Of a DNA stretch of 64,000 bases, positions 56,401 through 59,400 are shown piece by piece. Numbering within the stretch: position 1 is the stretch's first letter; each line of letters begins with the position of its first letter. The stretch covers positions 62,001-126,000 of the forward strand of contig CAJHNH020001995.1 in the NCBI GenBank assembly GCA_905116865.2, in the 5' to 3' direction. This DNA comes from Candidula unifasciata (Eukaryota; Mollusca; Gastropoda; Stylommatophora; Geomitridae). The notes under the pieces were generated by a model. It saw only the letters and a program-made list of their open reading frames with translations. It was not told the origin of the DNA and did not search any database. Both the position numbers and the translations under genes were made by a program.

Positions 56401-59400
56401 ATATGTATTGGGTGACTCATGCCATGATCCTGTAACCTCTATCATTAAGGTTACAGGACAATTTGACATCACTCTGACTTTTGACAAAGCCTTTTGTTTA
56501 CAAGTAAAAAAAAAAAAGTAAAGTAAAGATCCCTTTTCACGCCTTTCGGCGCATTGGGCATATAGGCAGAGCGTCCCATATTTTTACAGACCATCAGCAC
56601 TCTGTGGGTAATGTGGTCAGCATTACGCCGGCTGTCTTTACTTTCCCAGGACAGCCCATCCTGGTACCCATTTTTAGGCTGGGTCGACCTGCGAGGTCCC
56701 ATACCATGACAAAAATCCACACAGCCTGCAGTGGGTTTCGATCGCGGTATGCTGGCTCACGAGTCGGACTCGCAACGCCTTAGCCTTTGTTTACAAGGAA
56801 ACCCCCAAATTCTTTTATAGTAAATATATTCATATCCTGAATGGCTAAGCACTGCACAGGCACAAACAGAACCAATGGTGTTTAACTACACTTCTTGAAA
56901 ATATGACACCGCATTTGTAGGGAATGTGAAGTAATGAGATTTAGACTTCTTGGGTGAAATGGTTAACTGTCTTTACTGCCTGTATTTAGAATTATTTCTT
57001 TTTTTTTGGGGGGGGGGGGTGGGGGGGGGGGGCGGCATGAGCCTGAGGATTTGAGACCTCATGGTTAATGCAGTTGCCAAAAACTGCAAGTTCGAATTTT
57101 TAAGGACCAGGTAATGTCCTAGGAAGTAAAGATGGCCTGGATGATATTGACGACATCACCAACTGTATGGTTACTGGTCTATAAAAATAATTCTAGCAGC
57201 ACATACCTGATACACCACTGATTGTTTCCTTTTTCTTTTCTTTTAATACATATACATACATAATATATCTATCTTTTAAACAGACTCAAAAGGATTCCAG
57301 TTTAGCCTCTTTCCTGCAACCATTTCAAGATACTCTCTGGATACTGGTGGGTCTGTCTGTGCATGTTGTGGCTCTAGTTCTGTATCTCCTGGATCGCTTC
57401 TCTCCGTTTGGTCGGTTTAAACTGGCCAAAAGTGATGACACAGAGGAGGATGCTCTCAACCTGTCCAGTGCCATGTGGTTCTCATGGGGTGTGCTTCTCA
57501 ACAGTGGTATCGGTGAAGGTGGGTTCTCATGGGTTGTGCTTCTCAACAGTGGTATGGGTGAAGGTAGGTTCTCATGGGGTGTGCTGCTCAACGGTGGTAT
57601 CAGTGAAGGTGAGTTCTCACGGTGTGTGCTGCTCAACAGTGGTATCGGTGAAGGTAGGTTCTCATGGGGTGTGCTGCTCAACAGTGGTATCGGTGAAGGT
57701 GGGTTCTCATGGGGTGTGCTGCTCAACAGTGGTATCGGTGAAGGTAGGTTCTCATGGGGTGTGCTTCTCAACAGTGGTATCGGTGAAGGTGAGTTCTCAT
57801 AGGGTGTGCTGCTCAACAGTGGTGTCGGTGAAGGTGAGTTCTCATGGGGTGTGCTTCTCAACAGTGGTATCGGTGAAGGTGAGTTCTCATAGGGTGTGCT
57901 TCTCAACAGTGGTGTCGGTGAAGGTGAGTTCTCATGGGGTGTGCTTCTCAACAGTGGTATCGGTGAAGGTAGGTTCTCATGGGGTGTGCTGCTCAACAGT
58001 GGTATCGGTGAAGGTAGGTGGGGGTTTGTTTCTAAACATTGATCTCATGATTTCTATATGTGTAGTCACTTCCATTACCAGTAACTAGAAATTCCCACGT
58101 TAGCTGTTCTGCAGAGGGAGAAATCAAGCTAACTGGATACACACAGGCCAATAAAGTAGATACTCTCAACTTTTAACCTTCACCAAATTCATGAAAACGT
58201 TGTCACCCTAACATCTGTTCTCTTATTAATATTATTCTTTTTAGCATTCACCAACTGTAAACTTCAGTGGAAAGTTCTGGTTGTTCATCTACTCCTGCAC
58301 TTTAGTCTTGTTCCAGAACTTGAGATTAGCATATACATCCATTTCACAGATATTGCCTGTGTGCAAACTGGTGGGTTTTTTTTCCAACTCCCAGGCAGAT
58401 GCAATCTGACTGTGAAGGAAACACCCCTGATTAGTCACCTTTTATGACATACTTGTTTGGGTGGGAAGAGGAAAGGGAGGACTTTGGATCTTTTCTCCAG
58501 ACCATGCTGGTGTAGTGGGTAATGAACAGGCAGACAGACTGGCTGGAGCTGCACGGCTGGGTGGGGAACTGATACATGACAAGGCAGATGTGGTCAAGGC
58601 CCTTTGGGGACAAGCAACCGAACCAGTAGAGATAGAAGATTATTATGAATTAGAGAGAATGAGGTACCTGGGTGTAATCAGAGTGTCTGGCCGGCTTACT
58701 ACTCTCAGAAGAAAGACAAGACGGACATATGATCAGACTGTGACTGTTACCATCAGTATTGGAACTCTGCCCTGGCTGCTGAAGATGAAGACAGAGCATG
58801 CATGGGAATTCCCCGAGTGCTGTGATGTCAATTCTTGACTCAACTCAACTCAACTCAAGGAGGAGGGTAGATGTTGTTAGCAAGAGGTCTATTCTTTTTT
58901 TCTTCACAACAGAGCCCTGGAATCCACACAGGAATGTTCTGTTATTTTTAATGAAGTTCTTGGTTTTGATTTCAATTTTTCAACTGTAAATCCTCTACTT
59001 GATCTCTGTTATTTTTAAATATCAGTTTGAAGGACATCATTAAAACACTTACCGCAACATGCAAGACGGACATATAACCAGGTTACAGCTGGTACTATCA
59101 GTATTGGAACTCTGTGCTGGCTGCTGAAGATGAGGATGGAGCACATATGGGAATGCCCCGAGTGCTGTGGATTCTTGACTCAACTCAACTCAACTTACCA
59201 CATCATAAAGTTTGAGAATGGAGGTGGAGATAGTAACTGCGATCCTTTCAATAGCTTGAGAATCAGCTGTACACACGTCATAATTGTAAATGACTCACAG
59301 AGCATGCTGAGAAAGGTGGAGGCCAGTAGGCAAAGTGGCAAGCATTGCTTCAGAGGTCTTGGGCAGTTAGCCCCCTTTGGATATTTTCTCCACAAAATGT

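Follow-up and report, generated by a model that had tools for sequence, protein, structure and literature searches.

Where the end of an exon and its 5' splice site are repeated many times over, which of the resulting donors is used, and what becomes of the others? This question is raised by a GluN1 pore-loop exon in the window (the whole 64,000-nt stretch of Candidula unifasciata DNA that was analysed). The original prediction of 12 tandem copies with a 45-bp period at the exon end was borne out by a repeat finder, which returned 12.1 copies of period 45 at 57477-58019 (92% matches, 0% indels), and by self-comparison at a distance of 45, which placed the edges of similarity at 57478 and 58018-58019 (57479-58018 in the earlier description). 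The repeat unit comprised the 41 terminal bases of the exon and the 4 initial bases of the intron, and the phased copies spanned 57474-58013. The copies lay head to tail, and the 45-bp unit fell within the 10-100 bp of a minisatellite; as in the IFI6 type of array, the repeat overlapped the real 5' splice site of an exon and held a donor in every unit (12 of 12). A chance origin was rejected: the consensus unit, with 3 mismatches or fewer, occurred at 12 places in the window and was absent from all 100 dinucleotide shuffles.

The gene was identified as GluN1 (GRIN1) by 67 exon residues that matched NMDA 1 chains in the PDB (best E 6.8e-32). Fourteen GluN1 coding exons, collinear on the + strand, with GT and AG borders and a joined frame free of stops, were found in the 64-kb window (Table 1), and their order was checked against a protein of the land snail Bradybaena similaris and a rat GluN1 sequence used as a probe only. 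To judge from its sequence, the gene looks intact over these 14 exons; a decayed pseudogene was ruled out by the same 14 open exons with their GT and AG borders. The pore-loop exon was located by tblastn and the PDB match, and its borders were set by joining to the Bradybaena protein. Joining 57518 to 59763 restored the GluN1 peptide and gave one normal junction, and the introns on the two sides of the exon measured 2,427 and 2,244 nt. The exon and its donor were therefore as originally described, apart from the label "exon 12", which was that description's own numbering for the 11th coding exon found in the window. The closest listed homologue was the Bradybaena protein (88% identity to the first query), which was 94% identical to the window GluN1 over 754 columns and paired with it with full support in a tree of 16 proteins. 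In this tree the pair fell outside Arion plus Candidula. We take Bradybaena and Candidula both to be helicoid snails, which makes the grouping odd; if that is right, the cause would be noise in the gene tree, unrecognised paralogues or a wrong label.

Table 1. Positions of the GluN1 exons, the 45-bp array and other tandem repeats, in window coordinates; a slash marks the exon-intron cut.
Feature	Position	Strand	Detail	Basis
14 GluN1 coding exons	28689..63834	+	2,262 nt in total; outer borders of first and last exon provisional	
GluN1 coding exon: pre-M1 end, M1, M1-M2 linker, M2 pore loop	57284..57518	+	235 nt	
Next GluN1 exon (TPRSFSAR..., M3)	59763..59911	+		Homology, junction to Bradybaena protein
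12-copy 45-bp minisatellite	57478..58018	+	Without indels	Repeat finder, self-comparison
Copy 1, real exon end	57474..57518	+	Donor 1, AAG/GTGGGT, at 57518/57519	Copy-by-copy reading, exon junction
Copy 2	57519..57563	+	Donor 2, GTAGGT; +15 aa	Copy-by-copy reading
Copy 3	57564..57608	+	Donor 3, GTGAGT; +30 aa	Copy-by-copy reading
Copy 4	57609..57653	+	Donor 4, GTAGGT; +45 aa	Copy-by-copy reading
Copies 5-7	57654..57788	+	Donors GTGGGT, GTAGGT, GTGAGT; +60, +75, +90 aa; open	
Copies 8-12	57789..58013	+	Donors 8-12; frame shut by the TAG in copy 8	
TAG in copy 8	57800..57802	+	TGG to TAG; same change in copy 10, 57890-57892	
Intron past the array	58014..59762	+	Starts GTAGGTGGGGGTTTGTTTCT after copy 12, ends TTTGGCAG	
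Other minisatellite, 71 x 6.0	4530-4952		94-100% matches	
Other minisatellite, 24 x 7.2	26152-26324		94-100% matches	
Other minisatellite, 19 x 10.2	34856-35049		94-100% matches	
Other minisatellite, 18 x 22.7	54986-55392		94-100% matches	

The motif AAG/GTRRGT was present in all 12 copies. Copy-by-copy reading agreed with the original prediction in placing GTGAGT at +1 to +6 of copies 3 and 7-10 and GTGGGT in copy 1; copy 5 shared GTGGGT, and copies 2, 4, 6, 11 and 12 had GTAGGT. Reading of the frame likewise confirmed that donors 1-7 are open and in the GluN1 frame (0-90 extra residues) and that TAG codons in copies 8 and 10 close donors 8-12. An insert at the array junctions, which are read from the sequence, would follow the selectivity-filter Asn and lie in the M2-M3 linker under the general topology of this receptor, and thus the original pore loop would not be interrupted.

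The copies differed little from one another. Copies 7, 9 and 11 equalled the exon copy at 41 of 41 bases, while copies 5, 6 and 12 each showed one difference; copy 1 carried no private change in columns 5-45, where it was identical to copies 7, 9 and 11. Private changes were found in copies 2, 3 and 4, two in each. Copies 8 and 10 had two changes in common, the TAG among them, which points to the spread of one copy or copy pair within the array. Since copies 7, 9 and 11 have not diverged from the exon at any of their 41 bases, the array looks young or still in the course of being homogenised. Minisatellites are common in this region, which is rich in young tandem arrays: four others with a period of at least 18, at least 6 copies and at least 94% matches were present in the 64 kb. 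The window matched no Rfam family. Within the intron that holds the array, an open stretch at 58494-58832 (+) looks like the RNase H end of a retroelement; it matched no Pfam family at E 0.1. Two inverted pairs were also observed. The arms of a 20-nt inverted repeat (56788-56807 and 58019-58038, 85% complementary) lie upstream of the exon and directly behind the array, and may have arisen by chance; a C-run and a G-run at 55798-55833 and 56994-57029, both within the intron that precedes the exon, may be copies of a single repeat in opposite orientations.

The standard donor had been predicted to be weaker than those of copies 3 and 7-10, and two rough scores upheld this. Pairing with the 5' end of U1 was -9.9 kcal/mol for donor 1 and -10.7 kcal/mol for copies 3 and 7-10, the 12 array donors spanning -9.9 to -11.4 kcal/mol. 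The 12 other donors of the gene lay between -5.3 and -8.3 kcal/mol except for one at -11.1 kcal/mol, and donor 1 paired better than 11 of these 12. On a profile built from the same 12 donors, donors 1 and 5 scored 4.5 bits, five array donors 6.9 bits and another five (copies 3 and 7-10) 8.7 bits, the profile having 12 training sites only, which were left out in turn when scored, whereas the array donors were not. Donor 1 thus ranked below 10 of the 11 other array donors. The best U1 pairing (-11.4 kcal/mol) belonged to donor 12, the sole copy that is followed by the real intron's G-run and U-rich stretch. Use of donor 1 gives an exon of 235 nt, and use of donors 8-12 exons of 550-730 nt. RNA folding that would hide the downstream donors was considered and rejected, as folding singled out none of the donors and no ordered pattern favoured donor 1; the 9-nt site had a probability of 0.02-0.16 or 0.002-0.04 of being unpaired, depending on the length of sequence folded.

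Copies 2-12 contained 11 variable columns, 10 of them non-synonymous and 1 synonymous; the synonymous share expected for random changes was 0.24, and the probability of 1 or fewer in 11 was 0.23. All six private changes were non-synonymous (P 0.20): copy 2 had Val for Gly and Met for Ile, copy 3 Gly for Ser and Ser for Gly, and copy 4 Arg for Trp and Cys for Gly. The sites concerned (Trp, two Gly, Ser and Ile) were invariant in all, or all but one, of the 199 homologues that matched (column by column, 199 for one Gly, 198 for Ile and 198 for the other Gly), with the Trp and Ser columns fixed by the search pattern itself, which missed 2 of the 201 homologues. Six private changes at near-invariant residues, together with 10 non-synonymous columns of 11, thus give no sign of constraint on the peptide, and the extra copies would seem, at the low power available, to bear no mark of working pore-loop modules. 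Purifying selection on the extra copies was not detected and neutrality was not rejected in this comparison of 11 columns, the power of which is low. The 7 core donor columns were unchanged in all copies, which is not significant as evidence that selection maintains the donors (P 0.12) but hints at such maintenance.

We consider it probable, though well short of certain, that this is a minisatellite at an exon-intron border in which donor 1 is mainly used and the rest are tolerated, with some leak. A 45-bp segment (41 exon and 4 intron bases) would have been duplicated in tandem; GG stands at both edges of the array and is likely the microhomology of the first duplication. Growth to 12 copies would then have proceeded by unequal exchange or slippage, as the copies suggest. 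Since the whole 5' splice site was copied in each duplication, the outcome is 12 near-equal donors with one acceptor on each side. With flanking introns of ~2.3 kb, exon definition would be the expected mode of recognition, and most of the splicing would go to the donor closest to the upstream acceptor (57518, giving a 235-nt exon) despite its place among the two weakest of the twelve, leaving copies 2-12 intronic. Tolerance of the array may stem from the length of these introns, which favours exon definition and with it the first donor. Leakage to the donors that follow is plausible and, at donors 2 and 3, would add 15 or 30 residues to the M2-M3 linker; donors 8-12 would yield truncated products, most of them targets of NMD. 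That a 15-codon period leaves seven donors open would be a matter of arithmetic, not selection.

Evidence from other systems bears on this choice of donor in both directions. According to PMC9225289, long-intron contexts prefer the sites closest across the exon; a minigene whose two donors were identical and whose flanking introns measured 365 nt used the upstream donor exclusively, and strength-matched human events picked the upstream donor in 60%. These minigenes resemble the array in their long flanking introns and in that one acceptor is followed by several donors that are equal or nearly so, but they carry two engineered donors, whereas the array carries twelve natural ones at a fixed spacing of 45 nt. 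The shorter exon (235 vs up to 730 nt) also favours donor 1, and the use of the first IFI6 unit plus two downstream units supports the same reading. The weak score of donor 1 counts against it, as do the pairing and context of donor 12; so do the ~60% of all human events that favour the downstream donor before strength matching (PMC9225289) and the preference of DOK7 intron 4 for the intron-proximal donor (PMC5585400). Folding, which singles out no donor, and the unchanged core donor columns (P 0.12) stand on the same side. The rules of donor choice come from human cells. We take donor 1 to be the chief site, with some leak. Of the outcomes originally offered, a win of the nearest donor by exon definition is favoured by the intron lengths and the PMC9225289 minigenes, and graded isoforms are not.

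Graded isoforms would arise if donors 2-7 were used appreciably, perhaps under regulation, and the 15-90 extra residues altered NMDA-receptor gating or assembly. All six extra in-frame donors read AAG/GTRRGT, five of the six outscore donor 1 on the gene's own profile, copies 2-7 are free of indels and stops, and repeat units past the first serve as donors in IFI6 (PMC4526556). However, any product beyond donor 1 includes copy 2, in which Val replaces Gly and Met replaces Ile at near-invariant sites; in copy 4 Arg replaces Trp, the substitutions appear neutral, and the array is absent from the 201 listed homologue proteins. We regard such isoforms as rather unlikely, and as a selected product, with the 15-90 extra residues first envisaged, they are disfavoured because no constraint on the peptide was seen in the extra copies. 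A working splice ladder, by which neurons would make graded GluN1 with 0-6 extra pore-loop modules and copy number would vary between individuals, tuning NMDA receptors, is highly improbable. It is unlikely, too, that donors 8-12 capture much of the splicing, with truncated or NMD-degraded GluN1 and less receptor output as a passive or regulatory brake. The strong U1 pairing of donor 12, which alone keeps the original downstream context, would fit distal use, as would the intron-proximal preference in DOK7 (PMC5585400) and in unmatched human events (PMC9225289), but the resulting exons would be 550-730 nt long and strength-matched exon-defined events favour the upstream donor (PMC9225289). Heavy loss of GluN1 should, on general knowledge, also be costly.

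The reality of the array rests on the assembly, and the sequence could have been misassembled, in the array itself or in its copy number, or could represent a rare haplotype private to the animal sequenced. We judge this quite unlikely. The edges are clean and there are no indels; moreover, private changes only in copies 2-4 and a two-change haplotype common to copies 8 and 10 are hard to obtain from sequencing error. Such structured variation would argue against error, but it does not vouch for the copy number, which could nonetheless be off. The copies might also supply acceptors (CTTCTCAACAG/T) for small introns or micro-exons within the array, each having a C/T stretch, with CAG before the in-copy donor in 11 of 12. 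The 12 acceptor sites, however, scored -5.3 to 4.3, under the 90th percentile (4.7) of 2,116 AGs of the gene region, and were rejected as weak; with a piece of 14+45n nt from acceptor to donor that breaks the frame, splicing inside the array is scarcely credible.

The human IFI6 (6-16) minisatellite provides multiple splice donors, according to the title of a 1995 paper cited in PMC3618361 and PMC2915984, and PMC4526556 describes the first unit and two downstream units as donors that produce three mRNA species. Given this precedent, a donor minisatellite at an exon border is a known kind. Both arrays are minisatellites at the 5' splice site of an exon in which each unit is a possible donor. 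The IFI6 unit is 12 bp long, in a fast-evolving interferon gene, whereas the GluN1 unit is 45 bp and derives from a conserved pore-loop exon of a neuronal channel; the GluN1 array keeps the frame, stops shut its distal donors, and use of its donors is a prediction. What appears new is a codon-multiple, mostly open donor array in a highly conserved exon of a neuronal channel. Tandem genomic duplication of coding sequence bearing AGGT is a route to new introns, and the array likewise consists of directly duplicated sequence that contains a 5' splice site; it differs in that the GluN1 segment already ends at a real intron, with no new intron shown.

The earlier statement that no such structure was known in this gene family fits the listed proteins, which the motif count covers: 198 of 201 listed homologues had LLNSG once, one had it twice and two were unmatched, although the kind itself is known from IFI6. 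In a search with the donor-7 isoform, the best 120 of 717 hits were all single-copy proteins except for P0121, the protein with two motifs. This Meloidogyne enterolobii prediction is a nematode iGluR in which the pore-loop segment recurs at a distance of 36 residues, a longer and different duplication that may stem from doubling of an exon or from a faulty gene model. Among the titles from one limited literature search on mollusc GluN1 splice variants, none concerned a repeat at a GluN1 splice site.

The array constitutes a natural test of 5' splice-site choice, with twelve donors almost alike in sequence and equal in spacing and surroundings. They differ mainly in their distance from the upstream acceptor, and RNA would show how distance across the exon weighs against strength outside vertebrates. 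The array also bears on splice-site repeats as a source of protein insertions, and on how a pore-loop gene that tolerates almost no change survives a repeat at an exon border.
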